Shown here piece after piece: positions 1-57,698 of a stretch of 64,000 nucleotides of DNA. Under the pieces are notes generated by a model. The model was not told the origin of the DNA. It made no database searches and saw only the letters and a list, made by a program, of their open reading frames with translations. The first letter of the stretch is position 1; the number at the start of each line of letters is the position of its first letter. The stretch is from NCBI RefSeq assembly GCF_023343835.1, contig NC_064435.1, forward strand, positions 41,068,603 through 41,132,602, read 5' to 3'. A program made the position numbers and the translations under genes. The DNA is from Lagopus muta (Eukaryota; Chordata; Aves; Galliformes; Phasianidae).

Positions 1-253
1 TTTTTTTCCTGGGTGTCACTCGTCTCCTTACCTTGATTGAAGGTTTGATTAGAATATCTGACTCCATCTGGACCAATCCATGATGTGTTCAGTGAACATC
101 CGTATTCTGAAATCTCCCTCTTGAATTGGTACATGCTTAAATGTTAAAAACAAACAAAAATTATTAAATGAGTAAATATAAATTATCTCAGTACCTGCAT
201 AGAATGCATCTTTTAGGTATAAATTCTACACAGACAGCCTACTTTACCCTATA

Positions 254-2731: not shown

Positions 2732-4214
2732 ATGAAATGTTTGTGGTTTCAAAAGCTTTTCTGTTAGAGCAAAAATAGTTTTGTTTTTAAAAATAACATT
2801 TTGGAAGTATTTAGTTCTTAAAATAAAAAAGGATGTCAGGGTGAGGAAAAGTCTTTTCCTGCAGCAATCCAAAAAAAACCATAGTCACTAAGTTACGTAC
2901 AAGTAGGTGATTTCTTTATAAATAACTTGTAAATATATACTACAGCTGACAACGCTAAACAAGGAATTGCAAGTCAAGAGATAATCAAGAATTGTAGCAG
3001 AGATGGAGAGGTATGGCTGCTTTTTGTGTACTTAAATAAGCTGTTCAGAGACCAGTCACCAGTGGTGAGTTATTTAACACTCACCATTCATATTATGCAA
3101 TATGTAGCATACTGCCTGCTTGGAAGGAGGACATGTAAAGCTCCATGCTGCCAGTGACCATTTGCAATAACTGTGAAATCCAACTTCATTTGATACGTAT
3201 TTCTTAAGAAAGATACCTACCCTGCAAATCCTTTATCAAGCTTAAGGATCTCTTCAACTATTCACTTATTCTCCATTTATTAAAATAGAGTTTGTAATTT
3301 TAAATACCCTTCTTATAGTTTGTGCTGTACTGGCATGCATCTCTGATGCATTTGTCACCTTCCATGCTCTTATACAGATGACTGATCAAGGATCAAATCA
3401 TGTCCCACAGGCAACAGCAGATGGCTGAAGATGAGAATAATCACTGTTTTTCTCAGTTCCAGCTTTCCAGTCAATGCACACTATAGGCGTGTGTACTTTG
3501 AGGTAAGACTCACACATCTTTTAAAGCAAAAGTCATATTCTAAATTGGAAATTTGCTCGGGTGATGCATATAGTCACATTTCAGGCCTTTTCCATGTTTT
3601 ATCTTTTTATTGGTTTTAAATTTCTCTTATTTCTTTAATTTGACATGACAGAAAACGTTTCTTGCTAGAAAAGTCTGTGTGATTAAATCTCAGTGATTAA
3701 TAGATTAAGCATGATTCTTATCTCTGGATGAATTCCTTACAAACAATCAGTTTTGATGCACCTCTGAATTTCTCCATCCCAAATCTTTGTAAAAACCGAG
3801 AGAAATTGTGATTATTTACACATTAATTGAAAATTCAATTACATATTCATTTATATATTAATTGCAATTTGTTGTAAGAGTTCCTGGTGACTCTCTCCAC
3901 TTACATTTCTGAGCTGTTTCTCAGCTGATAGTTTCCAGCATTCATGACAGGAGTGCAGGGAAAGAAATACGGCAAATATACTGTTACAGTCGTAGTACAT
4001 ACCTGCAGGTATTATAAAAAGTAAACAAATTATCATGAGGTGTAGGAACAGAGAAAAACAGAAAGAAAATTGTCTAAAAATCACTAATGCCCACAGTTAC
4101 CAAAGTTATCCTTTAGATCTTACCCACATAACCCAGAATATCAGCATTTACCCATAAACAACTAGCAAGGCCCAGGTTCACCCATCTAGCTTCAGACACA
4201 AACTCCATTAAAGC

Positions 4215-8064: not shown

Positions 8065-8259
8065 CAGAATAAGCAGAGTTTCCAGCAGCTTGCTTGTTTT
8101 GCTAAGGGATGATTTTGGAATTGAATTAAAGAACTGCATACGTAACTTATTAATTTTTATATTAAGGGAAACAAAGAGAGCTCCCAGAAGACCTCCAAGC
8201 ATTCCAAGTAGGATGGCTGGAATGAAGGCCAAGACATGCACGTCCAGCAAATTCTTAAC
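8065..8259 (-). CDS. CLC-type chloride transporter, coding exon 7 (residues 323-387)
   Basis: This exon adds 65 codons of the ClC-6/7-like protein. It opens after a good acceptor (pyrimidine-rich, ending ACTCAG) with VKNLLDVHVLAF and ends with TLLIL directly before GTAAGT. The segment PAILLGMLGGLLGALFVSLN is a hydrophobic helix matching the known ClC-6/7 stretch of the type GVIGGLLGATFNCLN. It is followed by a basic cytosolic turn (INKLRMQFF) and the start of the next helix after KTSKLLE. In the CLC fold this corresponds roughly to helix I, the I-J linker and the start of J. Both borders are phase 0 and the frame runs on from the previous exon. No confident following exon was found, so the protein read here stops at residue 387. 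ClC-6 and ClC-7 are about 800-870 residues long, so less than half is present. Confidence 0.88.
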
Positions 8260-8779
8260 CTGAGTTGAAGGAAAGAGAAAACGTGTTCTGAGCATCCTGC
8301 CAGTGACATGAAATACTGCACCCTCTCCCACAAAACTTGACACCACAAAATAATTTCTACACACAGAAAATAAATCTTTCCTTATGTTTTAGGGATGCAG
8401 CTAGTTAATTTAAGGCCAGTCTCACACGAGGCAGTGTACTGCTCTTACACACCTCACAGCAGTGGAGGCAGCAAGTAGACACTATCATTGTCACAGATAG
8501 ATCCATTAGCCAGTTATTTTCATTCCTGAATGACTGTAAAGGAGTTGAGCATGTAATGCAGTAAGTTAAGGAAAGAAGTATTCTCTTAGGCCCATCTTTC
8601 CCTGGGGAATAGTAATGAATCTAGCAGAAAATTCTGTGATGTGCTGCAGTTACCAGAAACACTCAGCACCTCAGGTTGCTCCAAATAATGACGCCCTGGT
8701 CTGAGTGGTGCAGTTTGAAAAATTTTGCTGGACCAGAGCTTTGTTCACAGTATCTATATCTACCTCATAATTTTGAAAA

Positions 8780-9424
8780 GATGACCTGGGTCAGGGCAAT
8801 CCCAAGCACAGATACAGGTTGGGCTAGAGCAGCCCCAAGGAGAAGGATTTCAGAGTGTCAGTTGATAAAAGATTCAACATGAGCTGGCAATGTGCATTTA
8901 CAGCCCAGAAAGCCAACTGTATTCTGCATTGGATCAAGAGAAGCATGACCAGCATATGGAGGGAGGTGATTCTGCCCCTCTACTCTGCTCTCATGAGACC
9001 ACACTTGGAATACTGCATCCAGTTCTGGAGCCCCCCAAACCAGAAGGACATGGAGCTGTTGGTGCAGGTCCAGAGGAGGGCCACAAAGATTATAAGAGGG
9101 CTGGAGCACCTCCCCTATGAGGGCAGGTTGCAAGAGGCTCTTCTGCTTGTAGAAGAGAAGACTCCAAGGAGATCTTATAGCAGCCTTCCAGTGCCTGGAA
9201 GGGGCCTACAGGAAAACTGTGGAGAGACTTTCTATAAGGGCACATAGCAACAGGATGAGAGGAAATGGTTTTAAACTGGAAGAGGGTAGATTTAGACTAG
9301 ATATCAGGAAGAAATTATTTACTTCAGGCTGGATGGACTGGAGGGAGGTGTTCCTGCCTATAGCAGGGGCTGGAATTCAATGATCTTAAAGGTCCCTTCC
9401 AACCAAAACCATTCTATGATTCAT
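8780..9424 (+). mobile_element. CR1 LINE fragment with 3' end
   Basis: Plus-strand CR1 piece covering the end of ORF2 and the 3' UTR. Translation around 8855-9130 gives fragments typical of the CR1 reverse transcriptase C-terminal region, such as [18 protein letters not shown]. The element ends with CCATTCTATGATTC, the CR1 3' terminal motif. Frame breaks and 5' truncation make it non-functional. It is inserted in the sense opposite to the host gene. Confidence 0.92.
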
Positions 9425-11308
9425 TGTCAACCTCAATTCAACCATGTAAATTGAGTGCATTTTTAAACGCTAAGTACAATTGAAAATTGATGCTGATCTG
9501 GAACAACTTACAGAAAAACAGATCACAAATGTAGGATATAATCTGGCAGCTGGAATAGGAATTGAATTTTCTGCTTGATTCCACAACAGGCAACAAGAAT
9601 TACAGCAGTATCATGCTTTAATGTTATCTCCCAGTCAACAGAAAGAGGTCAATAGATTGATGGATATCTATTAAAAGCTGTGAGGATATTATTTCCTTAG
9701 CCCAGGCCTATGGTGATTTTTTATGGTAGCCCAGATACATGGTGATTTTTTTTTTTTTTTTCAAGATTAGAATCTGCACAGAGTAAGAGATCATGAAATA
9801 TTCAAGAAGCTAACTGGCAGAGTGAAATAGGGGCACACATGAAGGAATGGCTTCAAAACTGGACTAGGATAATACTTGGCATAGTTGATAAGAGAAACTG
9901 ACATCCTTCCTTGAATTGCTTGAAGAAGCCCATTGGACCTCCTGCTCAAATTATTGTTTCTTCCTCTTTTTATTCTTTTTCCTTAATCTTATTCTCAGAC
10001 CTCTTCCAGGAAACAGTGAAAATTTTAACAAGTCTATCAGAAGGCTGAGCTAAGCGCTGATGGTATCATCTGAGAAGAAGAGCACCAGAGCTGAAATCCA
10101 GTCAGGCCTGAAGAGCTGATCTATGGGTGCTGCAGACTGAGAGACATGGTCTGGTCTAAGCAAGGCAGAATCCCAGCTTTCACTCCCAGATGCTAGGAGC
10201 TCAACACCTGGAGATGCACTCAGAGGAAGTCAGGAGTGGCTATAGGTTTATTTTGCCTTTTCACTCCGGCTACAACAATTGTATATGAACATATTGTACA
10301 TACAAACCAAACCTTCAGTGATATTATTTTTACCATCAGCTGCATCAAAATCCATCCTTTTCCAAGGGATTTAAGAGATCTAATGCTTAAGGTATTGAAA
10401 TTCAGAAAGGAATAGCTCAATTGGAAGTAGTGGCAGGGTATAATGTTCTTGTCATAGTGTCAGTCACAGGCTTTGGCCATTCATCAGGAAAAATCTGTTA
10501 GCTACAGAACAGACTTCACCTTTACAAAACATCCCGTGGCCTACATAAAAATGAAGTGAAGCTTCCTGAAAATCTCAAGCTCTGGAGTACAATAAATTCT
10601 TGTAACCTTATCTTAAGTTGAAGGAAACTAAAGAAAACAAACAGTTTTCTGAGAAACAAAACCCCCAGGCTTTCAACTTAGAGTTTATCCACTGTAAACT
10701 CTGTTAGTTAATGCCACGAAACATAAAAGAAGCAAAATTTCCCCTGAGCCCAGGGTTCAGTGAAATGAAAATATTTCTAGTTATCTCTACCAACTTGAGA
10801 GCCAAAAACTATTCAACCCTGACAAAAGCCACACTGATAGTAAGTTAGCTTTTCCTGTTAAAGACACTAAAGGAAGATTGGAGACAGAATCCAGCACACT
10901 TTTTTGAAAATGTCTTGAAAGGAGTGTTGAAAGAGCCATGTTTATTGTAAAATAGCCACCAAAGTAAATCTACTCTCCTCTGTATGTGCAGCTGTCCATT
11001 ACACAATCCTTTGGCTTCAGCAATAAAACTGTCTTCAGCAGGGCTGAGCTCTTCCCTATTCATTTAGCCTCACCTTTCTGCCACAGATTTATGTCATCTT
11101 GGTTGTGTCACTGCAGCTGTTCATGGGACATGTTCACTGTCCACAAAAAGGATTTGAGTTGAAAACCACTATCTTCTCCCATTACCCCAGCTGAAGTTGT
11201 GGTAAAGCAAATAGACCTCAAATACTTTTGCATAGCATGCACATATAAAAAAAAGTTGCCTGTTTTCCAAATCATGATATGCCTACAACGTGGAAAATCT
11301 CTTTTTTC

Positions 11309-11335
11309 TTTTTTTTTTTTTTTTTTTTTTTTTTT
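11309..11335. repeat. 27-base T tract
   Basis: Homopolymer of T within CLC intron 6. In minus (transcript) orientation it is an A tract. Confidence 0.9.
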
Positions 11336-12062
11336 GCATTGATAGAGAAATACAAATCAGAAGAAATACAGAGACCAATTAAAATGATCAGGGAATTACC
11401 TTAGGAGAAAAGTTACTTAGTAGCAGAAAGTGGACTGGGGTTCATGAGACCAGGGTTTTATTTTTATCCCTCTAATTGACTTTCAAGTCACATCATAATA
11501 CAAAGAGTATTCAGACAAGGAGTGAAGATCTTGATTCTCACACGCCACCACTGAATCAACTTGCAATGAAGGTGAGTGAAAGACATAATAAAAGCAACTG
11601 TTTTTAAGTGGACACAAGGTAAAATTGAAAGCATAAGGTTGTGTCATGCTGGAAGGAATAAAGGCTGAAGGTCACCTCTGTTGTGCAAACAGGAATAAAC
11701 AGAGATTATGTTTTTAAATGTTTAATCTGTAAGCACAAAAGAACAGGGCCACAGTAGGGCAATGTCTGCAGCAACAAAGGAGAGCTCAAGCCAGCCACAG
11801 AAGAAGTCATTGAACATCTTTGTACTACAACGTAAAATGCACTTTTCTATTTAAGTAGGGACTGCAAAACAGCTGTCTTGTATCCAAGTGATTCCCAGAC
11901 ATAAAGCACAAAGGGTCCTGTGTCCACTGATCTGATAATTATACATACACTATTCTTCTTCCTTTTCAGTCCCAATTTCCTGCTACTCCCCCAAGAATAA
12001 TGTTGAGAGAAACAAACCTAAAACCCAGCATCTCATTCCTTCCACATCCACGCAGTACGTAC

Positions 12063-12306
12063 CCAAAACAGAATTCTTTTTTCTGCTTCAAAAAATCCAA
12101 AGTGACCTCTGAAAACAAACCCATAGAGCGATGAGGACAGCAAATCTGTGGTGAAGGTAGCTGTCAAGCAGCAAAAGAAGGTTTGCCAGGCCAGCCTGAT
12201 GTCCCAGAAGGAAGATACCTCCTCCAGAGTGAACAAGAGCCCGCCGATGGGGGCACGAAATACTGAAGCTATCCCTGCTCCCGCACCGGCTGTAATGAAG
12301 CTGCGC
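12063..12306 (-). CDS. CLC-type chloride transporter, coding exon 6 (completes 241, residues 242-322)
   Basis: The best-conserved exon of the gene. After acceptor TTGTTGCAG the frame reads [20 protein letters not shown] and then [20 protein letters not shown]. This aligns with the ClC-6/7 segment KRDFVSAGAAAG...APIGG..LFSLEEGSSFW. The G262-G263 turn and the paired glutamates E269-E270 are retained; in CLC exchangers one glutamate of this pair is the intracellular proton glutamate. R258 stands where most ClC-6/7 proteins have glycine (FGAPIGG becomes FRAPIGG). The exon continues through a membrane helix rich in F, T and L and ends KRILFW before donor GTACGT. It has 244 bases: one base completing the codon split from exon 5, then 81 codons. 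Confidence 0.95.
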
Positions 12307-12903
12307 CTGCAACAAGTAGTAGAGGCAACACCTGGATAACTGAAAAAAAACACCAAACAACCAAAACAAACAAGGAAAAAAAAACCAAAAACCAACCCTC
12401 CAAAATCACAGTTTCAATTCAAATATGAGTTTTATAGAACTGAATTTAAAGACCTGACGGTTAATTTTGGGGTTATTATGACACCTTTATTTACTTATTT
12501 ATTTATGACACTAGGTGCTGAATTCAGATCTAGTCTCTAGACTCATTCTCATGAGTCAAGTTCCTGGGGCTACTTGGCAGATTAGCAGTACACTGATTTC
12601 AATACTGGGGCTTGTGGAGAACACATGAGAATCCAGTAGCAACAGTGACCAAAGGACCCATACTGTATTAAAGTATTACATAATCATACTCTGAACTCTT
12701 AGGGCTTTTAGTCAGCAGGAAAGGGGAAATGACACTTCATTATTCACAGACTTCCTTCATACCATATCAATTTTTCTCTTTCCTGATCTTCAGCCTTGAA
12801 AAAATCCTAAATCCTAGAATATCACACGAGAAACGCACTTCAGCATCTTGCCATCATGGATTGTTGCTGAACAGTGTAATTAATGCAAGGCAGATATAAC
12901 ATT

Positions 12904-13190
12904 TCACACAGTGCAGCCAACAGGAGCAGGGAGGTGACCATCCCTCTGGTGAGGCTGCACCCCAAGCACTGTGTTCAGTTTTGGGTCTGTCACTACAAGA
13001 CACAGAGAGGCCCTGGCATGTGCCCAGAAAAGGGCTATGATGCTGTGAGGGGTCTGGAGCACAAGTCTGAGGGGGAGCGGCTGAGGAAGCTGGGATTGTT
13101 CAGTCTGAAGAAGAGGAGGCTCAGGGGAGATGTTATTGCTCTTTACAACCTCCCTGAAAGGAGGTTGTAGTGAGGTGGGGGTCAGCAGTA
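12904..13190 (+). mobile_element. CR1 LINE internal fragment
   Basis: The plus strand carries diverged CR1 ORF2/3' sequence, with phrases such as GTGACCATCCCTCTGGTGAG, AGGGGTCTGGAGCACAAG and GAGGCTCAGGGGAGA. The usual 3' terminal repeat is missing, so both ends are truncated. It is embedded in CLC intron 5. Confidence 0.8.
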
Positions 13191-14290
13191 GCATGCAGAA
13201 CAGTGGGAAGGATACAGAAAGAGGAAATAAGAGCGTGAAAGAATTTTACCTTGGAAAAATGTATTTAAGTGCAGCCTTTGCAATGGACACTGTGCTGATA
13301 CTGACACACATAACAGTGCTCACCAGCTTATAAAACTTGCATCTTCTGAATGTGCTCCCTGAGACTCTCAGGGATGATTTGCAGAAACGTGTACTCAGTA
13401 CTAGCTAGGATTAACAATTACACAAAAATACTTCAGTATTTTGAGTATTAAAAATCATAATTCCTCAGGTATAAATGTATGTTCCGTATATATCCAACCG
13501 GTCTTCTGAAAATACGAACCCTACATTAGGTGGCCCTTTTGACTTTTCCAGCGTATCCACAAATTTTGTAAGCACAAAGATGGGAGGCAATAAGGGTAAT
13601 GGACAGAAAAGAGAGAAAAAAAAAAAAAAAAAAAGGGAAAAAAAATATAAAAGGAAAAGATTAGAAAGTTCACGTGTTGAAGTCCTTACAAGGACCCTGT
13701 CCTCCAAGGACTGAGGAGGAGTCCACCAGCAAAGCTACATCGGCAATTTCACATCTGGTATTTTACAACTAACAGGGTTGTACACCGTTAGTACACAGAT
13801 TTTTCACTTGCATGTTTTATCTGCACAGGAATATTATTTTCACCAGTGAAGAACTCAAAATGTACTGCAGTAAATGCTAGGGGAAATTTGCTTGGACATC
13901 TCCCACTTTCTGTTCCAGTTATTTACACATGCTGTGCATCACCCCAGCAGTGACAATTAATAATGAAATCAGACCCCTTGTACAGATCTCTTACAGCTGC
14001 CTGCTGGATGGAAGCCTTAGGATTCTTCCACAACTCCTGCTGGTTGAATTACTGCTTTGCCTGTGGCGGCACTGGGAGAGGCACCAAGCCTATGTAATAA
14101 CTCCAAAAGACAACAGGGAGCTGGAGTTTTTCATCCTGATCTTTGTAAACGGAGTGAGGTCTTGCTCAGACCAAAATCTCTTTCTGTTTTTAAGAAATAA
14201 TCATTTTGTAAAAAAGACTACAACACACCATGTCTTTCTGAGGATAGTTCCTGTCTGCAAGGAACTAAAGCAGGAACTAAAACTTAAAAT

Positions 14291-14725
14291 CACAGAATCA
14301 TATAAACTGAGTTGGAAGGGGCCTTTAAAGGCCATCTAGCCCAACTCCCCTGCAATGAACGAGAACACCTACAACTACATCAGGCTGTTCTGATTTATTT
14401 AAATGATTGACCTTGAATCACAGAATGGCCAGGGTTGGAAGGGACCTTAAGGATCATGAATCTCCAAACCCAGTTCCACATGCAGGACCACCAGTCTCCC
14501 CATTTAATACTAGACCAGGCTGCCCAGGGCCCCATCCAATTAAGTGATCAAAGAATGGCTTGGGTTGAAAAGGACCACAATGATCAACCCCCAATCACCA
14601 GACCAGGCTGCCCAGGGCCTCATCCAGCCTGGCCTTGAATGCCTCCAGAGATGGGGCATCCACAACCTTCTTGGACAACCTGTTCAGTGCATTACCACCC
14701 TCTGTGTGAAAAAACTTCCTCCTAG
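14291..14725 (-). mobile_element. Cluster of three CR1 3' ends
   Basis: Three CR1 3' termini follow one another in the same (minus) orientation, beginning near 14291, 14416 and 14552. Each plus-strand start resembles CACAGAATCATAT or CAGAATGGC followed by GTTGGAAGGGACC-type sequence. The third is the longest and includes ACCAGACCAGGCTGCCCAGG. The arrangement suggests repeated insertion into, or next to, an existing CR1. Confidence 0.85.
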
Positions 14726-15502
14726 ATGATAAAGGCAAAGGGAATCCCATTCTTCCCTCCTACATTTTTTTATTTATTTGCAAGCAGCATATAGTTCACA
14801 GTTACCATTCATTTGATTTTTTCCTATCGTTACTTCATTTCCCTCAGGAAATTAAGACATGAGTCTTTCTTTTTTTCCTTGCTCTAGAAAAGTCAGCATT
14901 GCTTGAGTCTTTGTACTTGTGTATTTTATACAAATACACAATAAATACCGACTAGAAGACGTAAGCAGGTTTGTAATTTCTTTTTCTGGGAACTAATCTC
15001 AGTAATTTCAGTAGAGCTGTTCACAAGAGAGAGCTTACCAGAGTTACCTTGCAGATATATACAGGCAGAGAAGAGGCAGATAAAAAAAGCAAGTGACACA
15101 ACCCTTTACTTTTTTTAAATGAAGAAAGGAAGCTAAGGGCCCTCTGTGCACATTGTGGAATCCCCATCATTTCCTCTCCACTGAGCTGAGACTCTTAGTT
15201 TGGGGACAAAGCTCATAGCTGAAAATCTCACGTTTCTTAAACTCTTCCCTTTACAGCCAAGAGGGCAATGGAAAAAGGTCTTCAGTATTAATGCATTCTT
15301 TTCCACAAGCCTATGATAGAACCATTTGTGAAGGATTAAATTTATTAAGTATGGTGAGTTTTCTTCCACTACAAAGTGACAAACAGCAGGAAGACCAAAA
15401 GACCAGGAATGGAGATGCTGTTCCACTGCATGAGATGCAAGGTACCCTTGAAGCACTTAGGGTTTGGGGGAGTCACCAGTCTGTGCCCTGCCCATCACTT
15501 AC

Positions 15503-15595
15503 TTGTCAGCTGAATTCCGAAACCTGGTGAAGAAGGGAAGGTGGATGCCAAGTGTGTCTGACTGCAGCTGGCTCAGGCCACAACCCAGGATAGCC
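15503..15595 (-). CDS. CLC-type chloride transporter, coding exon 5 (completes 210, residues 211-240)
   Basis: A short 93-base exon found by following reading phase. After acceptor CTGCTTTTAG one base completes G210, and the frame continues AILGCGLSQLQSDTLGIHLP, then FFTRFRNSADK. This fits the ClC-6/7 segment of the form SVVGAGLPQFQS...FPYFRSDRDKRDF, the end of helix F and the loop before helix G. The exon ends GAC AA followed by GTAAGT. The split lysine codon is completed by exon 6, so the joint reads SADKRSFITAG. Phase on both sides and the correct order between neighbours make the call strong despite its size. Confidence 0.9.
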
Positions 15596-17210
15596 CTAAA
15601 AGCAGTGATGTATAATTGAGAGCACTCTTCATTAAACTGTTCATAAATCAGTTTCAGCTCAAGGTAGGGGAGGACAGAGCCTCAGTCAGTGTACAGCAGC
15701 AAAGCTAGATTGGCTTCAACAGATTTAAACAAGAAAAAACTTGAACACATCTTTTAAATATGCAAAATCCTGTTGACAAAAAGCAGGAGGCTCTTAAAGG
15801 TTTTCAAATTCTTAAATGAGAGACTTAAATGGCTTTTTTTGCAAGGAGTATTGTGATGATTGATCGTGAAATGCCTTTTGAAGAACTGCATGTTAGTGTC
15901 TGCCCAAGTGTGGTGACCCATCAGACTATAGCCCCGTTGTTTCAATCATCTGCCCCCAGGTTAATGACCACAGCAGGCAAAACAGCTCTGCTTCTGACAG
16001 AAGATGCATAATGATTTAAATTATTACAATATGTTCCCAGGCAGCACGTCAAACTACATTTAAATGGGGGGGAAAAAAAACCAACAAAAATCCCTTAGCG
16101 AAATGAAAAATCCATTCACTGTATAATCTTGGAAGACTTCTCTACACGACTTAAACTAGTGGTCTTAAGGAGTCTCTCAGAGGCTTTTAGCAACTTGTGT
16201 GTTTATGTTTAATAAAAATGGTAGAGGGTTCCAATTAAATTAAGTTAAATTAGCTCTTAGTTCCTGTGTTTTGAAAAGGCATCACATTAATACCACACTG
16301 AATTTCTTCATGGAAATGTGATTCCATTCTTTGGCTCAGGCATCACTGTTACCAACCTAGCACAGAGGAAAAACATCACAGCTGCAGTCTCTGAGCTCCT
16401 AGAGACAGAGGTCTGAAGGCAAAGAAAACAAAAGAAATCTGAAGGTAATCGCTGCCTGAAAGGTTTGCGGCTCCTCTGACCAAGCATGCTCTCCTATTTT
16501 TGAAAATCTGAGTCATCCCCAAGGGTGCTACACCTCCATTCAGATAAATAATAAATAAATAAAAGCCCACAGAGTAGCAGGTCAGGTCAGCAAAGAGAAC
16601 AAACCTCAAGGATGAATGCTTTCCAAGCCAAAAAGGATCAGAAGTAAAACAGTGAACTAGCCAACAAGTGATCTACAACATGTTAGCAGAGACCAATTTC
16701 ACCAACTCTACTCAAGGTATGGTTTAATAATAGTAATGAAGTGTAGCAGGAGTCACTTCAAATAGATGGCCTTGCACAATCTCAGCTCTTGTGCAAGTGG
16801 ATGCAAAAACATGGCCCATTTTGCGTGCAGCCACCTGAACCTGCCTTTATTTTTGCACTGACCTTGCACAGCTAAAAGCAATTACAGTAGATGCAAAGCA
16901 GCCAACATTGCTCCAGGCCAATAGCAGTTTTGCCAATTCAGTCTCCCCTGCTTTCTCAGCACATTGTAAGCTACCTCATCAGTTGTCCAGATAGCTACTT
17001 ACTGAACCACGCTCAGAGTCATACAGAGAAATCCAGCCAATGTTTAAAACACACCGCATGGTTTGAACAGATGTGCTAGTGAAAAGGAGGGGACAATACA
17101 ACACCTCTGGTACTAATGCAGTGAGGGAGTTTTGAAGCCAATGTTGCCACCAAGCAAGACATTGCAAAGCCATCTCACAGTCTGATAGCTTTAACTTCGG
17201 CATTTCTTAC
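15596..17210 (-). other. CLC intron 4
   Basis: A 1.6 kb intron with consensus ends. It contains no repeat that I recognise and no extra exon; open frames here look like chance. Confidence 0.85.
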
Positions 17211-17386
17211 CCCAAATGGACCATGGGACCTTCCAGACCACAGAAGAGTCCAGAGGCTACAGCCAGCACACAGGAGACAAAGGTCCCTAGGAAGGTTTTG
17301 ATGTTAAATAGATGTTGAATAGAAGTGCCATTCAAATATCCAATGATTTCAGGCAAGCCAGATGGTGAACCAGATGGGCAAAAGAA
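17211..17386 (-). CDS. CLC-type chloride transporter, coding exon 4 (residues 152-209 plus part of 210)
   Basis: The exon opens after acceptor CCCTTTGCAG with FFCPSGSPSGLPEIIGYLNG and closes with GLFCGLEGPMVHL before donor GTAAGA. It carries two signature elements of CLC proteins. The first anion-filter motif, normally GSGIP, reads PSGLP here (residues 159-163); the serine that coordinates chloride in CLC structures is kept as S160. The second motif, normally GKEGP or GREGP, reads GLEGP (201-205), keeping the gating glutamate as E203 but replacing the basic residue by leucine. Between them IIGYLNGTSIQ matches the YLNG loop of ClC-6/7. The exon is 176 bases, phase 0 in and two bases over at the end. 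Confidence 0.94.
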
Positions 17387-18487
17387 CTGCAAAGGGAAAA
17401 AATAATTAGCAGAGTTTGTGCTCGTATCCTTCCATACACATCTATGAATGCAGTCCAGGTCTCATCTTGCTAATGAACAAGATTTGCCAGAGTTAACAGT
17501 GCATGCAAATATAATCTCTGGCAACACAGAAATGTGTGTTCTCAGCAGTTGCCACGCGTGGAGAAGGGAGAGAAGATGACTGCAGAGGGCCCACCTCTGC
17601 TCTGAGCCCTACAGTCAAGGCCCTGTATCCGGCACACAGGTTCATAGAATGGCCAGGGTTAAAATAGTCCGCAGTTATCACCTCGTTTTAACCCCCCTAC
17701 TATGTTCAGGGTTGCCAACCACTAGACCATGCTGCTCAGAGCCACATCCAGCCTGGCCTTGAATGCCCCCAGGGATGGGGCATCTGCAGCCTCCTTGGGC
17801 ATACCAGAGGGAAACCTTCCTTGGGTTACCACAGGGGCAGGTGGCTGTGAGCCTGCAGTGTTTGCTCAGTCAGCACGGCTGTACTTAACTAAATTGGTCA
17901 GTTACCACCTGTGCCACAGCAAAATCCCCTTTCCTCATGCAGTCAGACTTCTGGGAAGTTCAGTAAAACATTCATTTTTTCTGTCACCTGCGCTGTTAAT
18001 AGCTTCTCTGTAATTAAACTGAGCACAGCAGAGCGGTAAATGGCAGCAAGGCTCAATGCTCTACCCTTACAGTCTTGTAAAAGCACTGATCTGCACTGCA
18101 AGCGATACCCACACAGTGCAGCTAAAAGATCAGACTAAAACCAACAGTAGTTTTCATACGGCCCGATGGCCTTTGGCTCAGGCCCCTTCCAAACACCAGA
18201 TTCTCACATATTCCAAGAGTTGCCACTCGTATTTGTTTTACAGACACCACACACCAAGTGCAAATTGCATGGCTGCCACCATGGATCTCACCCCAGACAG
18301 TTCTACACAACTTACGAGCAGCAGAATTTAGCCTTAGGCTGAAGGCCAAAAACAGCCTCCCCAGTTGGGTTGTAAGAGAGATTTTACATAAATATATACA
18401 AAATACTTAATTAAACAATATTTGGAAGAACGTGAGATTTGGGTTACTGCAGCACTGCGGGCTCTTTGCACAAAAGACAGCACTCAC
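17387..18487 (-). other. CLC intron 3
   Basis: A 1.1 kb intron containing a minus-strand CR1 fragment (17641-17815). No other feature was recognised. Confidence 0.85.
17641..17815 (-). mobile_element. CR1 LINE 3' fragment
   Basis: The plus strand starts TTCATAGAATGGCCAGGGTT and continues with AGGGTTGCCAACCACTAGACC and CCAGCCTGGCCTTGAATGCC, the reverse complement of a CR1 3' end. It is only about 175 bases long and is inserted in CLC intron 3 in the same orientation as the gene. Confidence 0.9.
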
Positions 18488-18568
18488 CAGCACCAAGCTT
18501 GAGGACACGAGGACCATGGCCAGCCCAGGACCCAGCACACACACCCACACCAGGTGGAAGTTGCCATC
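18488..18568 (-). CDS. CLC-type chloride transporter, coding exon 3 (residues 125-151)
   Basis: An 81-base exon, phase 0 on both sides. It reads DGNFHLVWVCVLGPGLAMVL followed by VSSSLVL, a hydrophobic helix matching the ClC-6/7 segment before the first filter motif (of the type LALSLLELLGFNLTFVFLAS). The donor CTG|GTGAGT is strong. The acceptor ACTGGGCAG has a weak pyrimidine tract, which is the least certain point of the exon. With exon 4 the joint reads SLVLFFCPSG, one residue longer than the usual ClC-6 spacing. It is too short to appear as a long open frame and was found from phase and position. Confidence 0.85.
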
Positions 18569-20432
18569 CTGCCCAGTTTACAAAGAGATGGTTACTTCAG
18601 CACCTGTGTACTGGCTATACACCCTGTTTTGTAATCATCTGCAGATAGAATGTGCAGGGGAAAAAAAACAACAAAGTAAAAGTAGTGCAGTTTCTTTATA
18701 AGGACTGACACAACAGTAAGCTAAAGGCCAACGTGCCAAGTCGTGATTTTGTTCTGGGCTATTTTGTCCATCTCTGCAAACGCTGTAAGGGATGCATTGT
18801 TACTTAGCAAGGCCCTTTTGGGAACAAGAGGAAAGGGACTTTAAGAATATGCACAAGAAATCACTAAATGGAGCCCTCAGGAGATGTGCTCTTGAATTGA
18901 GGCTCCAAGGTCATTACCTTCATGAATTTGCAGCTCTTATGAATAAACAGAGTACTTCTAAGGAAACTCTTCTTGTTCCATTTTAACAAAAGAAACATCT
19001 CTTATACCATGCCTCCTCACATTTAAAATTGCCTGTCAGTCTCCGTGGGTTTTTGGTTTATTTGTTTGTGCTTGGGCTGACTGCAGCCATACTGTTTCCA
19101 CTGCTCCACAGCTCCCACATGCTTTGTCTCTTTCCACAGCACTGGGTTGAGATTCACTGTGTGTGCAGGTGAAACACAAACTTGCATTTCAGAGTTTGCA
19201 ATATTACAGCAGGTAGCCGCAGGCTTTCCGTCAACATCTCATACCAATGCTTTTGATAGCCTATAATGCAGCACAGCCAAAACAGGAAAGCACAGTGATG
19301 AGCCTTGCTCATCTGCAGCTGAAGGAGGTGAGTGGGAAAGTTAAACATTTGTGCTGCTTTCAAAGCCTGGGAGAACTTACCTGCTGTCCTCTATGTTAGT
19401 TTAATACAATACAACAGAAGTTATGATACAACTGGCCAGCACTGTGTGTTGTGGTTGTGCCCTGGAGTTAGACTGTGCTATAAATTTAGTTATACCTCAG
19501 CGCACATATACACACACAAGTATGTATATAAGTACACATACTCATATGCATGTATATATGTGTATTCATCCATTGTTCAATATATTTTATAAACATATAA
19601 TTAGTTTGTATATGAAATATATGGGGAAGTAGGATTTCAAGAGCATTGCATATGCTTTCCTCATATAAAACTTAAACCTGCCCATTTATTGGATATTCCC
19701 TTAGATATATTCAGCCTCCATCTCATCCACAGGAAAAGTTTTCACTTGCATTTCTGACAAGAAATTGAGACTTGTCTTTCAGCAACTGGCGGCATGATCT
19801 TGATTGTCCATTATCCTAATTTCACAGAATGGATTAGAAGGCACCTCTGGAGATCAGCTAGTCCAGACAGAGACTCAAAGTAGGTTCAGCCCTAAATCCA
19901 ATTAGTCAGGGCTATGTGCAGTCAGATTTCAAGTCTCCAAGGATGGAGAATCCACGGTTTCTCTCAACAATGTTTTCCCAGGGCTTGATCACAAAATAAT
20001 GAAAAAAGCTTTTGCTTATGTTCAAATTCCCTGTATTTCATTTTCCTCCTTCAGTTTGCTTAGTATTCTTAATGCACCTGACCGAGGAAGCTGATAGCTG
20101 AATGCCATACTTACAAAGTGTCTTAAGCGAAACCTAATCCCTTCTCTTTGGCATACATGACATGACAATACATGACATAGCACATGCTCCTTCCTTGTCG
20201 CAAGGAAGACCACAAGACTATAAAAACTACCTTCATCAATCTTCTAAGAAAGCCACCAGATATTAAACTGCAATTGAAGGTCAGCTGGAGAAAAGGAACA
20301 TGTCCACACAAAGAACCACAGGATATCTGACATCTACACCCATCTAGACAGGCAGAACCTCTAGTCAGTTAAATCTTCATGTGGTTTTTCCAACAAATGA
20401 GTACAGAGGAGGTCGATCTTTCTTTTGCTTAC
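18569..20432 (-). other. CLC intron 2
   Basis: A 1.9 kb intron. It holds an old CR1 fragment (19823-20015) and a purine/pyrimidine-alternating tract near 19500-19620 (ACACAC/TATATA mixtures). No exon was recognised. Confidence 0.8.
19823..20015 (-). mobile_element. Old CR1 LINE 3' fragment
   Basis: The plus strand has TCACAGAATGGATTAGAAGG followed by the CR1-like phrases GATCAGCTAGTCCAG and CAAGGATGGAGAATCCACG. It is clearly more diverged than the other copies, so boundaries are approximate. Confidence 0.7.
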
Positions 20433-20562
20433 CTTCAGGTAACTTTCCACCAGGTCCCATTTCAATTTGAAGAGAGAATCAACTATCTGATGAGTCAAAA
20501 ACCCCAGCATCCCCACTGCTGTTCCAATTAGCCCCATCAGCAGCCATCGATCCCACTCTTTT
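20433..20562 (-). CDS. CLC-type chloride transporter, coding exon 2 (completes 81, residues 82-124)
   Basis: After acceptor TTCTAG one base completes G81, then the frame reads KEWDRWLLMGLIGTAVGMLG and FLTHQIVDSLFKLKWDLVES, ending YLK before GTAAGC. This is the first membrane helix of the CLC fold and the following amphipathic stretch. It aligns with the ClC-6 segment KWMVVFAIGVCTGLVGLFVDF...LKFGVVQ. The length is 130 bases (1 + 43 codons), leaving phase 0. Spacing and order relative to the N-terminal exon match ClC-6/7, where this helix directly follows the ESLDY region. Confidence 0.93.
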
Positions 20563-21421
20563 CTAGAAGCAGAACACAGTTATTTCTCAGCCTTCCACAA
20601 AAGACCATTTGCTGCACTTCTCATACTTGTGTATACAAGTTCCACTTTCAGGATCTTCTGATTATTAATCATGAGTGCATGAGCAAGAGGCTGTTTCTCC
20701 CACCGTGTATCACAAAAGCCCATGCTCACAGTACACTAACTTCAGGTGAAAGACATTTGGATAACAAGCATCATTGATTTTTCTTTGCTTGCTTTTGTGT
20801 ATAAGCTGCAATGCAATCTGCCTTCCAGATGCTGATTGTCTGATGCCATCTCAAAACTCTTTTATGAATATCAATAATTAAGCATTCAGTAGTGCAGTCA
20901 GAGTTTACTTAAAATAAATTACTGTTGTCTTCTTCTGCAATTAATGCAATGACACAGCTTTTATTATGCAAATATACATGAATTTTTATTTCTAGTTTGC
21001 ATCTTTTGTATCAGATATCTCTAATTATGTACTGACAATAACTCTTGTTAGTTTAGTCATTTAGAACTAAAGCCACCCAATTTAGATTCAAATGCCATAT
21101 TTCTTGCATACTACACTAAGAGACAGCAAATTTCAAGAAAAGTCTCAGTAAGAGAACATTCCACAAACCTCTGCAAAGTCTCTTAAAATTGTATACAGTG
21201 AGTTGTAACTTCTTTTCCTTATATTCAATAATTTGTCAAGAGAAAAGGGATAAACACTCAAAAAACAATTTTAAACAAAGGTTGCTTGCCACTTGCCCCC
21301 CTCCTTTCTATCAAAATGTTTTCCACATAATGTTTTCCTTCTGCTAGGAGGCACCTCCCTGAGTTGGCCAAATTTCCTAAAGTTTAGAGGCTATAAAATA
21401 ATATATATAAAATAAATTTAC
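20563..21421 (-). other. CLC intron 1 (between coding exons)
   Basis: An intron of 859 bases with consensus ends, AT-rich, without recognisable repeats. Confidence 0.85.
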
Positions 21422-21663
21422 CCGTATGTTTTCTCTTGTAGCCACTTCTTATAAACTCCACTGTGTGAAGGCAAATAATCCAAACTTTCATGGGGCACTG
21501 GCTGTTCTCTCTCTTCACAGTCATAATAGGCTAAATTACTTCTGTTGATGCCACATTGCCCCCTAAAATCCTGAGGATGAATCAGATCAGGGCCATGATC
21601 TTCTGCCATCAACATTCCCTCTTCGCCATCATCCATGTGTCTTGTATAGGAAAAAAGTGACAT
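21422..21663 (-). CDS. CLC-type chloride transporter, coding exon 1 (residues 1-80, ClC-6/7 subfamily)
   Basis: N-terminal exon of a CLC protein in the ClC-6/ClC-7 class. These are endosomal or lysosomal Cl-/H+ exchangers in known members. The start is the ATG at 21661-21663, with G at -3. The frame gives an acidic cytosolic tail (HMDDGEEGMLMAEDHG), then HESLDYLPSHSGVYKKWLQE, ending TYG across the donor GTAAAT. HESLDY matches the conserved YESLDYD of ClC-6 and ClC-7, which places the gene in that branch rather than with ClC-1/2/K or ClC-3/4/5. With the six later exons this makes 387 codons without a stop. The protein is clearly diverged from ClC-6 and ClC-7 in its functional motifs, so I give no symbol. 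It may be a separate vertebrate paralogue; that is inference. Confidence 0.9.
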
Positions 21664-21728
21664 GACGTGTCTTCCAAAACCTTTTAGATGTCGAGAATGA
21701 TGTGAGCCAACTATCAGCTACCTTGAGA
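21664..21728 (-). other. Probable 5' UTR part of CLC exon
   Basis: A very good acceptor (GGGGTTTTTCTTTCAG) ends at 21729, so the exon holding the start codon probably begins at 21728 with a 65-base 5' UTR. The reading frame upstream of the ATG has no stop within these bases, but no upstream ATG in that frame was seen. Confidence 0.5.
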
Positions 21729-22127
21729 CTGAAAGAAAAACCCCATGAGGATGGGGTGGCTGTGACACAGAGATGGACTTGTTTGTGTTTGGGGTTGGTT
21801 TGCTGTGGCTATGCACAGGCCCAGCACCTTCAACACAACGAGAACCTGTCCGAGCTGGAGCTCACTGGTGAAGGAGTCACTCACAGCAGAGAGACCTTAA
21901 AGCAGTCCACAGTAACAAGACTATTGCACCTGTTCCTCATGGAATGTTCACATGACAGTGATAGGGCTTTAATTGTTTTAAAGATATGATCACATGCGGT
22001 GCTTCGAGCTGTCTGGAGATCTTGACCCAATATATAATCGCATAATAAAAAAAAATTTAAAAGCCCTATATTGCTGTATCATTCACACTAAAAAAATAGG
22101 ATGAAAACAAATTAAAAAATTGCCTAC

Positions 22128-22425
22128 CTGACTTGCTGCAATTTGGGTCTTGTACATCAGGAAGTTTGCAGGTTGGCAGTTGAAAGCAGAAGACTTGTTG
22201 CAGGTCGCATATTTACTGTAAATAGAAACCTGTTACATGCTGCAATGTTTGCCACCTCCACAGTGTGTTTTTGGTTACAGGGAGAGGAGAGCAGACGGCT
22301 GCTGCTGCTCCCCAGTTGCTGGCACATGGGTCAGTTTGGAAAGGTCTCATCTGAAGTAGTGATGAAACATAAATAGCTCCTGGTTGTCAGTTAGTGACTA
22401 GGAAGTGGTGAGAGCTCTTCATCAC
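22128..22425 (-). other. Probable non-coding first exon of the CLC gene
   Basis: In minus orientation this ends with the strong donor AGTCAG|GTAGGC at 22128/22127, which would join the acceptor at 21728/21729 across a 399-base intron. Its 5' end is set at about 25-30 bases below a TATA-like element and is therefore approximate. It has no long open frame; a two-codon ATG-GCG-TGA lies near its start. Confidence 0.42.
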
Positions 22426-22450
22426 GCCATTTACTTCTGAGATACGGGCA

Positions 22451-22486
22451 CTTATATGACGTCACTTTCTAGTCACTTTCTGTTGG
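22451..22486 (-). promoter_or_regulatory. CRE-TATA promoter candidate for the CLC gene
   Basis: Read on the minus strand, a perfect palindromic cAMP-response element TGACGTCA (22457-22464) is followed immediately by TATAAG (22451-22456). Just upstream is a near-perfect tandem repeat of AGAAAGTGAC (AGAAAGTGACT then AGAAAGTGACG). Direction, distance to the candidate first exon and lack of another gene nearby point to this gene. CREs abutting TATA boxes are known from CREB/CREM-controlled promoters; binding here is inferred. Confidence 0.5.
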
Positions 22487-28892: not shown

Positions 28893-29039
28893 TTAATTGT
28901 TGTAAGTTTGTCCTTCTGGAGGTTGTGGAAGCTTCATATTTTCTTTGGACATCATTAGACGTCTTAGCTCTTGAAGTACAACTTTAATGCTATAAGAATT
29001 TTGCCATTTTGCTAACACTGGTATGCTCCGTGCATCCAC
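28893..29039 (-). CDS. UBE2V2: UBE2V2 coding exon 4 (residues 97-144, C-terminus)
   Basis: Last coding exon, 48 codons plus TAA. It follows acceptor TCTCTTTGCAG and reads [40 protein letters not shown] and PEGQTYNN. This is the C-terminal part of the ubiquitin-conjugating-enzyme-variant (UEV) domain. The ending QTYNN and the VDARSIPVL segment identify UBE2V2 (MMS2) rather than its paralogue UBE2V1, which has VDPRAISVL and QCYSN. As in all UEV proteins, the E2 active-site cysteine is absent. UBE2V2 pairs with UBC13 (UBE2N) to build K63-linked ubiquitin chains in DNA damage tolerance. Confidence 0.98.
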
Positions 29040-30639
29040 CTGCAAAGAGAAGAGAAAGTTGTAAGTTATAATGAAATAATAATTTAAAAAAACCTATGTA
29101 TGAATTACTGCTATTGACCTAATGCTCCTAAGAAAGAGTCAAAACATTCTCTGACAATTTCTCTGTGGCATAAAGTCCCCACTTTATGAACTGTGTTCAT
29201 AACACAGTTTTTAGGAAAATAAACATACATTTGCACAGATACAGATTCTGCAATAAAACCCATGCAGGTGGATCCCTCCACCTGTGCTGATATTAACATC
29301 AGTGAGAACAAAAAGGATGGGGTGAGTGGAGAAGAAGTCAGCAAACAGTTCACTGCTAAACTGGAACCATACCTCACAAAATTCAGTTCTACCAATTTGT
29401 TTCAAATGACTCAAAAAAATCACCTTCATTAAGTATATATTAAATACATACACTTGGGTTTTTAAAGAGCTGAGGAAAACACTGACACACAAGTGTTTGC
29501 AAATACCTCTCTTAAGGAATACTTGTTTCAAGTATCAGTTTGTGATTATTCCATACTGATATTATGTGGTGCTTCTGATATACCAAGTATCAGTACATAT
29601 GCTAAGAAATGGCCTGAATTACTTGATTCATGATGTTGAGCCATTTATTAGTTCTTCACATTGTTCTTGCAGTAAATCATTTAATGGAGCTGTGAAGATT
29701 ACTTACATGTGGACTTTCCCTATTCATTTATTAAACCTGTGAGATAACTTACACAATCACAACACAGAGAGGTTTCAATAGGCAAGCACAAGTCAACAAA
29801 TGAAAATCAGCCTGTTTTGGCAGCAGGTATGTCCTGTCCACTCAGGCTGCACAGAGCATCCTAAGAAGATCTTAGGGAGCCCAAAGCTGTGGATGGCAAA
29901 GGAGACCCAAGGGCAAGAATAGGCAACTGCACAATCCTGAGTTCCATTGCCACAGTAATGCAGGTAGGCCATGAGGCTATAAAAGTGCTGAAAAGTCACC
30001 GATTTATAATTTAGGCTGTATAAAGCATCATGAAGCTTCTTTTCTCCTTCTCATTAGAACAAAAAGCAAAAAACAAAAAAACTTCACTGTCCTTAGAAAG
30101 AATTCTAGCAGAAGCATTTTCTTTCTAGATTGTTGAGGCTATTTTCAGAACACCAGAAGATGAGGCTAAACCTTTTGGTAAGAGGAAACTGATGCCAAAG
30201 CTTAACAGCATGCTGGTGTAGGTAGCAATAAGAACTCAAGAAAATTCTCCCTCTCACTAGGCACTTTTTCCCCGTAGCAGTGCTACTGTGTATCAGCATT
30301 TCAGATGAGCCGTGAAATGTTTGTAGGCCTTCTTTGTGATGCGAAGTGATAGAGGGCAGGATCCTTGATCCGATTCACAGCTCAGCACTTCTCTTTGTAC
30401 AAAGAACGTTCTGCCTAGAGTCTGAGCTCCTTATATAGCCAGCACCGCTGCAAAAGACCTCACATCATCAAACCACAGTATAAAAGGCAGTAAAATTAAT
30501 ACATAATTTATAAATGTTTGTAATAATTAAGAAAGGAGATCAAAAGGAAAGTTATCTTATGCATCAAGGTCATGGCAGTTTGAAGTAACCAGTAAGTGTA
30601 TGAGTTTACACAGAAAAGTTTTCAAAGTAACACTATAGT

Positions 30640-34085: not shown

Positions 34086-35774
34086 AGAATCTGTTCAGCA
34101 CAAGTGAACTGCCTCTATATCTCGTACACTCTTTGTGTACAACTTCTCCAGAAACGTGACATTTCTATCCACACAGAATACACCACAGATAAGTGGCTTA
34201 ACCAAAAATGAAAAACTAGGTTGGAGCAAAGCCAAACTCAGCTCTCCGTCAGAATTCCAGTTCTGTGCTCTCAACTGCAAAACGTGCCTCCACTTTAGGA
34301 GGTCTGGCACAATTTTAGTGAGAACAACGGCAAAACAAGTTAAAAACACAAGAAATCAAGACAAAGGGTACATCAAAAAAATCACTTAGTGAGTTTTAAA
34401 TCCGTTAGTGCTGCGAACGGTTTATGTTAAAAGTACAACCTATTCCTACTGAAATCCACGAAACACGTACAGTTAAGCATCTGCACAGCAAATCCTTCAT
34501 AATGTATTCTATCTGCTAGAACCACTGGGGGTAAGAATGAACTTTTGCTGCAAGCTTACAAATGAATTAGAATCAGATTTTCCTATAGTAACGACTGAAT
34601 TTTATCAGTGCTTTTAAAACCACCCGTCAAACTTCCGGTCCCAATATTCAGCCCCTTTCTCATCAGGCTGAGGGAGTCCAGACTTCTCCAAACACAAGCT
34701 CCAAGCAGATGGGCTCAGTAAACACAAGCTTTTAGGCTCTGCAGGCCTGAAATTTCGCTTCTGGAAACCAGCAGCTATATTCTCAGGCATGCACAGATGA
34801 ATTAATGACAACATACTTCTTCACTGATTCAGAACAATACATGTTACAAGGGGGACATATGAAAATAGTATTATAAACATACCAAAAGCTCTACTGCATT
34901 CCAGATTGGCAGCTTTGGCTGGTCACAACCTCTTAATAAATACAAATACTGAGATTATAAGCTACAGCTGGAATAAAGAGCAACAGCTGGTTTGTAGACA
35001 GCAATTTTAGTAAGATCTTCAGATAGAGTTGGGTTGTTGACTATGCAGGAAGAAATTTCAAATCCCCTTTGAACTATTGCTGAGGTGTTAGTTCACTGGC
35101 TTTGGATGATCAGTATACTTTTAAGACTCACCACAGCTCAAACACACTGCTAAGAATGTAATTCACTGCAAATGGATCTTTAATATGAAAGTGGTTACTA
35201 CCTATATTAAAAGACCTTAAGACTGAAGCTTAAAAATAATCTCAGATCTGAATAAATCCACTATAAAGAAAATAGGCATTTAAACACATCAGTTCATCCA
35301 CAATACGATTCAGGCAGAAACATTTCCATTTGTAATTAATGGAAATATCAGATAAAGTTTGGATACTAAAACAAACTTTACTAACTAAACAAAAAATGGT
35401 CTTTAGTACAGCATTCCTGTTAGGACAGAATCTAATGTCATTTTTGTAAGATCAATCCATGGAAAATATATGGCTTAAACATTTTTTTTCCAGTGCAAAA
35501 TTAAAACCTTTGATTTTATTTCAGAGAAACAAGAGTTTCAGTATTATAAATAATGCCTCTCTCACTAACAAGCCACTGAGAGCCACTAAAATACTGTAAA
35601 CACCTTAAGATTTAAATGTGTGCAATAGGCAACCAAAATTTCATTTAAACCAAGTACTTCATACTGTACAATTTAAATAGGAAAACTCCTTCCAACATGC
35701 AAAATCCTCATCTGGGATATAAATAGTTTATAGTACAGATTAACAATATTGTTGGTCTTACCATTTCAACTTAC

Positions 35775-35900
35775 CATTCCATTGGAATTATTTATTCCAT
35801 TCATATTAATTTTAGTTACAAATCTAACTGTAGGAGGTGCTTCTGGATATTTAGGTCCACACTCTACTTTCAGACTGTATATTCTGTTTTCATAGTTTGT
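35775..35900 (-). CDS. UBE2V2: UBE2V2 coding exon 3 (residues 55-96)
   Basis: Exactly 42 codons, phase 0 on both sides, between acceptor TGCTTTCTAG and donor ATG|GTAAGT. It reads [20 protein letters not shown], then [20 protein letters not shown], then GM. This is the central beta-sheet of the UEV fold with the conserved [10 protein letters not shown] turn. [15 protein letters not shown] distinguishes UBE2V2 from UBE2V1 ([15 protein letters not shown]). Compared with human, the end reads NNSNGM instead of NNSSGM, and APPT instead of APPS, both minor. The position matching the E2 catalytic cysteine is not cysteine, as expected for a UEV. Confidence 0.98.
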
Positions 35901-38900: not shown

Positions 38901-38946
38901 CAGTTGGCATTTTGTAGTGCTTGCAACATTTTATTGTCACGCTTAC
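35901..38946 (-). other. UBE2V2: UBE2V2 intron 2
   Basis: A 3.0 kb intron with consensus ends. No repeat family, RNA gene or further exon was recognised. Confidence 0.9.
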
Positions 38947-39092
38947 CCTCGGTGGCCCAATAATCATGCCTGTCCACCTGGTGAGTGTCATATCTTCATC
39001 ATCTTCAAGGCCCCAGCTTACTGTACCATCACCTACTCCCTTCTGCCCTTCTTCAAGTTCTTCCAACAAGCGAAAATTACGAGGTACTTTAA
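38947..39092 (-). CDS. UBE2V2: UBE2V2 coding exon 2 (completes residue 6, residues 7-54)
   Basis: The exon opens after acceptor TTTTTTCTGTAG. Two bases complete a valine codon begun in exon 1, then the frame reads [40 protein letters not shown] and GMIIGPPR before GTAAGC. This is the N-terminal helix and first strands of the UEV domain. It is essentially identical to human UBE2V2 and UBE2V1, so it does not by itself separate the two; exons 3 and 4 do. The acceptor lies three bases nearer the lysine codon than the human protein would require, so one glycine present in human (STGVKV) is missing and the joint reads STVKV. Confidence 0.96.
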
Positions 39093-42041: not shown

Positions 42042-42400
42042 ATAGAATGGCCTGGGTTGAAAAGGACCACAATGACCACCTCATTTCAACCCCCTGCTGT
42101 GTGCAGGGTCACCAACCACCAGACCAGGCTGCCCAGAGCCACATCCAGCCTGGCCTTGAATGCCTCCAGGGATGGGGCATCCACAACCTCCTTGGGCAGC
42201 CTGTTCCAGTGCGTCACCACCCTCTGGGTGAAAAACTTCCTCCTAACATCTAACCTAAACCTCCCCTGTCTCATTTTAAAACCATTCCCCCTTGTCCTAT
42301 CACCATCCACCCTCGTAAGCAGCCGTTCCCCTTTATCATTATGCTTCTTACAATCATTATCATATGCTTCTCCAGTGCCTTAAATCCATTTCTCAGAAGC
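42042..42400 (-). mobile_element. CR1 LINE 3' fragment
   Basis: The plus strand opens CATAGAATGGCCTGGGTTGA and contains the complete CR1 3' block (ACCAGACCAGGCTGCCCAGA, TCCAGGGATGGGGCATCCAC, CACCCTCTGGGTGAAAAACT) in reverse complement. It is little diverged, so it is probably one of the younger copies here. Confidence 0.93.
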
Positions 42401-57640: not shown

Positions 57641-57698
57641 TCGGTGCTTACGGTGACAGAATTAGAAGTGAGATTTCAAAAGACAGCCAACAGTATGA

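Follow-up and report, generated by a model that had tools for sequence, protein, structure and literature searches.

A putative third CLC gene of the ClC-6/ClC-7 type in Lagopus muta, with an anion pathway that lacks the pore lysine

Does the CLC gene that runs off the left end of one stretch of the Lagopus muta genome belong to ClC-6, to ClC-7 or to neither, and is its product still likely to move anions? The stretch analysed here (the window, 64,000 nucleotides) is C3:41068603-41132602 of the 1.03-Gb genome, and negative window positions denote sequence to its left. An initial annotation, made from the letters of the window alone, had described a divergent ClC-6/7-type chloride transporter in seven in-frame exons, with an altered first filter motif (PSGLP in place of GSGIP), and had suggested that it might be a vertebrate paralogue separate from ClC-6 and ClC-7. 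The evidence presented below supports such a paralogue, as far as sequence comparison goes, and widens the description of its anion pathway: PSGLP is the lesser part of the alteration, and the loss of the pore lysine is more telling.

The gene lies on the minus strand at approximately C3:41017396-41090265. A total of 14 exons were located, with borders set at GT-AG sites that preserve the reading frame, and 13 of these form one frame of 675 codons with no stop. Exons 1-9 are within the window and five further exons lie to its left, extending about 51 kb beyond it, the seven exons first described being about half of the gene. Residues are numbered here from the ATG at 21636; another ATG, at 21663, sits nine codons upstream in the same frame. 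Counted from the latter, exons 1-7 (21663-8065, minus strand) give 378 + 9 = 387 residues, exactly the length initially reported, and PSGLP falls at the residues 159-163 assigned to it. The span of 8065..22464 originally given for these exons holds at 8065, but coding begins at 21663 or 21636, and no coding exon was located between 21663 and 22464. The exons, in window positions, are as follows.

Exon 1, 21422..21636, minus strand: acidic N-terminus (MDDGEEGMLM...) and HESLDY, with the second in-frame ATG at 21663; open frame, GT donor.
Exon 2, 20433..20562, minus strand: first membrane helix (EWDRWLLMGLIGTAVGMLGF); AG/GT borders, frame kept, weak tblastn match to CLC-7 (E 0.34).
Exon 3, 18488..18568, minus strand: next helix (HLVWVCVLGPGLAMVLVSSSLVL); AG/GT borders, frame kept.
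Exon 4, 17211..17386, minus strand: PSGLP (codons from 17365), Thr ACC at 17284 and GLEGP (codons from 17239); Pfam E 1.1e-6, codons and alignment.
Exon 5, 15503..15595, minus strand: helix following the gating glutamate; AG/GT borders, frame kept.
Exon 6, 12063..12306, minus strand: proton-glutamate helix; Pfam E 5.0e-15 for the exon alone, phmmer match to CLC-6 with E 1.5e-15.
Exon 7, 8065..8259, minus strand: AILLGMLGGLLGALF helix; AG/GT borders, frame kept, overlapping Pfam match with E 5.2e-4.
Exon 8, 3905..4002, minus strand: CTTTVTVYLPYFFPC, helix into the lumenal loop; AG/GT borders, frame kept.
Exon 9, 32..135, minus strand: lumenal loop with sequons NTS and NQT, aligned to CLC-6 NETYN; best in a phase- and motif-constrained exon search, frame kept.
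Exon 10, -482 to -653, minus strand: left of the window.
Exon 11, -2238 to -2409, minus strand: left of the window.
Exon 12, -18949 to -19115, minus strand: left of the window.
Exon 13, -34650 to -34829, minus strand: CBS1.
Last exon, -50976 to -51206, minus strand: CBS2 domain, ending in a stop.

The acceptor of exon 9 is rather weak. An earlier candidate for this exon (window approximately 735-690) was dropped, having no donor and no fitting phase, whereas 135-32 fits the phase, the splice sites and the NxTYN motif.

The spliced protein matches the Pfam family Voltage_CLC (PF00654) with 246.4 bits (E 5.9e-73, cut-off 24.8), well above anything expected by chance, over positions 2-345 of the 346 in the profile. 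The last exon matches Pfam CBS (PF00571) with 27 bits (cut-off 24), while CBS1 aligns to CLC-6 but gives no Pfam match of its own. Among solved structures, the best score is to CLC-6 (CLCN6; PDB 8jpj, 8jpr; 307 bits), with which the new gene has in common the membrane domain, ESLDY near the start, lumenal-loop sequons and CBS1, followed by CLC-7 (CLCN7; PDB 7bxu, 7jm6; 277 bits), with the same domain order, the plant 2NO3-/H+ exchanger AtCLCa (PDB 8iab, 7xa9; 258 bits) and CLC-3 (171 bits). CLC-7 itself partners with OSTM1. The exchanger hallmarks are present, namely the gating glutamate E194 (in GLEGP) and the glutamate pair E260/E261. The GSGIP filter motif is absent, PSGLP standing in its place, but this motif is no condition of membership, AtCLCa also departing from it; the plant nitrate-type proline in place of the filter serine is likewise absent, Ser151 being kept.

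Simple orthology with CLCN6 or CLCN7 was rejected because the same genome carries a typical copy of each on another contig, CLCN7 on C18 and CLCN6 on C24. Pfam matches mark CLC sequence at six other loci: two are on C1, C7, C12 and C16 have one each, and C24 has one besides CLCN6. Of these, the loci on C16, C7 and C1:123.95 Mb hold CLC-3/4/5-type sequence. The new protein is identical to the CLC-6 of its own genome at 217/575 positions (38%) and to its own CLC-7 at 183/517 (35%), while these two match each other at 269/528. In a tree of seven rows (the new gene, own and human CLC-6, own and human CLC-7, AtCLCa and human CLC-3), CLC-6 and CLC-7 group without the new gene with support of 95/95 (99/97 under LG+G4). 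With CLC-3 included, forcing the new gene together with CLC-6 is rejected (p 0.031; p 0.009 under LG+G4), as is forcing it with CLC-7 (p 0.029; p 0.005 under LG+G4). The test does not reject placing the new gene together with AtCLCa (p 0.28). Intron positions were also compared, leaving out the first intron in the case of CLC-7, whose locus begins inside the gene. None of 12 introns is exactly common with CLC-6 or CLC-7, while own CLC-6 and CLC-7 have four in common; one lies within 3 columns of a same-phase CLC-7 intron, as do 54% of random placements (16 of 20 CLC-7 introns used). The typical CLCN6 and CLCN7 copies, the 95/95 grouping and the clade tests with CLC-3, though not those without it, thus support the suggestion of a paralogue separate from both, and so a probable third CLC of the ClC-6/ClC-7 type. 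Placement inside the orthologue clade of CLC-6 or CLC-7, which the initial annotation had named as the outcome that would speak against its proposal, did not appear in this tree of one row of the new gene and few others.

For the comparison of residues, the new gene was aligned with the six other tree rows, which represent four families. It keeps 68 of the 86 columns that are invariant in these rows (0.79). With other groups as the focal row, and the new gene left out, the kept share is 88/100 for CLC-6, 86/100 for CLC-7, 86/117 for AtCLCa and 86/115 for CLC-3. The retention of 68/86 is ordinary, the other rows ranging from 0.735 to 0.88; what is unusual is the location of the 18 changes, a few of which are in loops of unsure alignment. 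They include G150P and I153L (giving PSGLP), K157I, K177T, K193L (GLEGP for GKEGP), F499V (GVVIP for GxFxP) and M552L. By contrast with the new gene, ClC-6 has GSGIP, the pore lysine, a lysine before the gating glutamate and GLFVP; ClC-7 has GSGIP, GKEGP, GVFIP and the pore lysine; and AtCLCa, with GPGIP (proline at the serine), keeps the lysines and GLFLP. Kept in the new gene are the filter serine S151, the gating E194, the pair E260/E261 and the tyrosine Y592 of SLYSS. The altered anion filter and the retained chloride-coordinating serine of the initial annotation are therefore both upheld, the first glycine of GSGIP being a proline, with the addition that the K131-aligned lysine, the basic residue of GKEGP and the phenylalanine of GxFxP are lost as well. 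The motif FR(A/S)P is common to the new gene and AtCLCa, the other animal rows compared having FGAP. A separate observation concerns CLC-6 itself: the human rows (PDB 8jpj, 8jpr) read VEKEGP and bird CLCN6 reads VGKEGP, so that the glycine before the lysine differs. A possible duplicate of the filter exon, as an alternative exon, was sought by tblastn: the minus strand of C3:41008604-41132602 gave one match, and a whole-genome search, which scores only its best candidates, gave one among its four matches.

By alignment, we take position 177 to be K131 of the bacterial exchanger ClC-ec1, and the first glycine of GSGIP, a proline in the new gene, to be its G106. The K131 column holds lysine in 6/6 compared rows and threonine (Thr177, codon ACC at window 17284) in the new gene. 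Lysine is also found in 50/50 bacterial CLC frames, from a set of 51 loci of which one was dropped because no frame held the filter motifs; these loci are not independent, 36 of the 51 being Mycobacterium or Mycolicibacterium, and the K131 column was in neither the frame filter nor the search pattern. The first glycine of GSGIP is a glycine in the same 50/50 frames and 6/6 rows, being Pro150 in the new gene. The bacterial arginine found 50/50 at the K193 position is no evidence, since it was imposed by the filter. Among three further CLC loci of the same genome, the lysine is present in two (L001, L002) and the exon was not seen in the third (L003).

A 2026 study describes K131 as conserved throughout the CLC channels and transporters (PMC12873427). 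It reports weak chloride binding by ClC-ec1 K131A, turnover about 20-fold slower than in the wild type (110 for K131A and 130 for K131M versus 2300 chloride per s), and stoichiometries of 3.0 and 3.4, respectively, versus 2.0, so that coupling is kept at about 3:1 (PMC12873427). These mutants resemble the new gene in being without the buried lysine and show slow, largely coupled exchange, but each carries one engineered substitution in a bacterial protein whose filter is otherwise normal (PMC12873427). K131 is reported there to form hydrogen bonds with two residues of the inner-gate loop, A104 and G106 (PMC12873427); the proline of PSGLP and the lost lysine thus correspond to contact partners in ClC-ec1, both of which are changed here. 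The third substitution of a basic residue, K193L, aligns with arginine 147 of ClC-ec1, whose side chain, in simulations described in another study, moves after protonation of E148 (PMC8625536).

A dead gene is not preferred, no lesion having been found in 675 codons over 13 exons. Under an assumed neutral decay, with birds taken to gain 1.9e-9 substitutions per site per year and one indel for every ten substitutions, a lesion-free frame of 2025 bases has a probability of 0.06 at 5 million years and 0.004 at 10 million years, which argues against an old pseudogene but not against a very young one. Searches for the linker exon or exons that should join CBS1 to CBS2, by tblastn, two exon enumerations and spliced alignment with CLC-7, CLC-6 and AtCLCa as guides, gave nothing convincing. 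Each guide yielded a different, low-scoring answer, and because they disagree and score low no linker exon is claimed, C3:41033191-41033140 being a weak candidate only. Two bases remain after the last full codon of exon 13, and the reading frame of the last exon is frame 0; one or more exons are therefore required to connect the two. The missing sequence is expected in the 16-kb interval C3:41017620-41033772, where no frame is a good likeness of the linker of CLC-6, CLC-7 or AtCLCa. The unfound linker may or may not reflect a lesion, and 'intact' applies to the parts found. The initial argument from intact frames and splice sites against a dead gene therefore holds in part: 675 codons are free of stops and frameshifts, but the linker is missing and the borders were chosen to keep the frame.

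The reading that we favour, and judge somewhat probable, is that of an old CLC paralogue that still functions, its product being a slow endolysosomal Cl-/H+ exchanger that binds anions weakly. The protein has the CLC membrane domain, with the two coupling glutamates and the serine and tyrosine of the filter, together with CBS-type ends. Since these four features of the pathway are kept, an anion/proton exchanger is the least strained reading. Exchange of anions and protons would most likely take place at an endosomal or lysosomal membrane, a compartment suggested by the acidic, leucine-bearing N-terminus and by its kinship with ClC-6/7. With threonine for the buried lysine and proline for the inner-gate glycine, anion binding may be weak and turnover slow, with coupling largely kept, by the behaviour of K131A/M. 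The expression, compartment, transport rate and selectivity of the new protein are all things that we infer. Several observations weigh against the reading as a whole. Removal of charge by K157I, K177T and K193L could abolish anion transport altogether. Without the CLC-3 outgroup, support for the grouping of CLC-6 with CLC-7 is 83/83, and a clade of the new gene with CLC-6 (p 0.097) or with CLC-7 (p 0.068) is not rejected; the new gene, AtCLCa and CLC-3 are, moreover, all long branches. Three introns lie within 3 columns of same-phase CLC-6 introns, a number reached by 3.9% of random placements, and these near-matches lean to CLC-6 ancestry or to old introns that have slid. To these is added the unfound linker, direct splicing of exon 13 to the last exon being out of frame.

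The strongest functional rival to a slow exchanger is a non-transporting partner of ClC-6/7, a protein that would be made without performing useful anion transport and would serve as a dimer partner or regulator of ClC-6 or ClC-7, or as a pH or nucleotide sensor via its CBS domains. Such a role might explain why the pore lysine described as universal, the basic neighbour of the gating glutamate, one more lysine and the glycine and phenylalanine of two filter motifs have gone from a fold that is otherwise kept, but a non-transporter need not keep both coupling glutamates, the serine and the tyrosine, and ClC-ec1 K131A/M still exchange (PMC12873427); we consider this rival rather unlikely. Exchange of protons for an anion other than chloride, or for several anions, would agree with the departures of PSGLP and GVVIP from GSGIP and GxFxP, and the residue at the second GSGIP position sets anion specificity in plant CLCs (PMC8839641). 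That residue is still a serine in the new gene (Ser151), however, and serine at this position is associated with chloride rather than nitrate (PMC8839641); AtCLCa has proline here. We consider altered selectivity distinctly unlikely. Very unlikely, in our estimate, is a recently silenced gene, in which the frame is still open, function is relaxed and the altered residues mean nothing. The unfound linker exon, the changes at otherwise fixed sites and the choice of borders that maintain the frame could all be taken in its favour, but zero stops or frameshifts were seen over the 13 exons, and retention of invariant columns is within the range of other CLC rows.

As regards age, the likeliest position of the lineage, judged from the tree and the introns, would be older than the split of CLC-6 and CLC-7. 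The main rival is a fast-evolving CLCN6 duplicate, of sauropsid origin or specific to birds, whose long branch mimics age, and which is compatible with any of the functional readings. It could account for the top bit score to CLC-6 (307 versus 277 for CLC-7), the near-matching introns and the clade with CLC-6 that is not rejected without CLC-3; yet no exact intron is common with CLC-6, while CLC-6 and CLC-7 still have four, the CLC-6 clade is rejected with the outgroup at both p values given above, and the new gene is on a different contig from CLCN6. We regard a duplicate as unlikely. If the older age is correct, the gene was lost on the way to mammals, and such a loss is, by this argument from age, the most probable history. 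To our knowledge, the human gene set contains no such additional member of the ClC-6/7 branch.

The CLC gene sits between SNAI2 (C3:40733946-40735216) and UBE2V2-MCM4, with UBE2V2 at approximately C3:41097498-41107710 (probable first exon near 41126000) and MCM4 at C3:41141464-41152142, just right of the window. The order SNAI2, UBE2V2, MCM4 matches that of human 8q11, where no CLC gene is known. In chicken these genes are on the second chromosome, and the length of C3, 94.6 Mb, hints that this chromosome is divided in the present galliform. The UBE2V2 exons in the window (28896-29048, 35769-35900 and 38914-39108) are on the minus strand, the same as the CLC gene, the two later ones being 93% and 96% identical to the human protein, and its probable first exon is near 57400-57650 (minus strand) in a G+C-rich stretch. 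Elsewhere in the window, frames at 9000-9420, 40600-41060, 42000-42380 and 47690-48095, within introns and between genes, read like the 3' part of CR1-type retroelements.

A zebra finch ion channel survey that also covers chicken gives CLCN1-7 and CLCNK in its Table 1, states that finch and chicken have 9/10 of the CLCN genes of mammals, and reports that no novel paralogues were detected (PMC6679542). We read its nine as the eight CLCN genes plus BSND of its table, and the new gene is not in its CLCN list (PMC6679542). Among the open-licence PMC papers listed in searches for a CLCN7-like or CLCN6-like gene, a mammal-lost CLC or a bird-specific CLC, none concerned such a gene, and the locus may well be present already in automatic annotation, named as a '-like' gene. 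It is possible, and we put it forward tentatively, that the gene stands for an entire vertebrate CLC subfamily of ancient origin, which mammals have lost and surveys of bird channels have missed, that its supposedly universal pore lysine and the inner-gate contact of that lysine changed together, and that its product is naturally slow, chloride-insensitive or non-transporting, with a role of its own in bird endolysosomes. A natural CLC with an open frame, without the lysine and with the contact glycine changed, would be a natural experiment on what CLC exchange requires. The new gene would also enlarge the ClC-6/7 branch of vertebrates by one member, for which bird lysosome and bone biology would be the obvious place to look.

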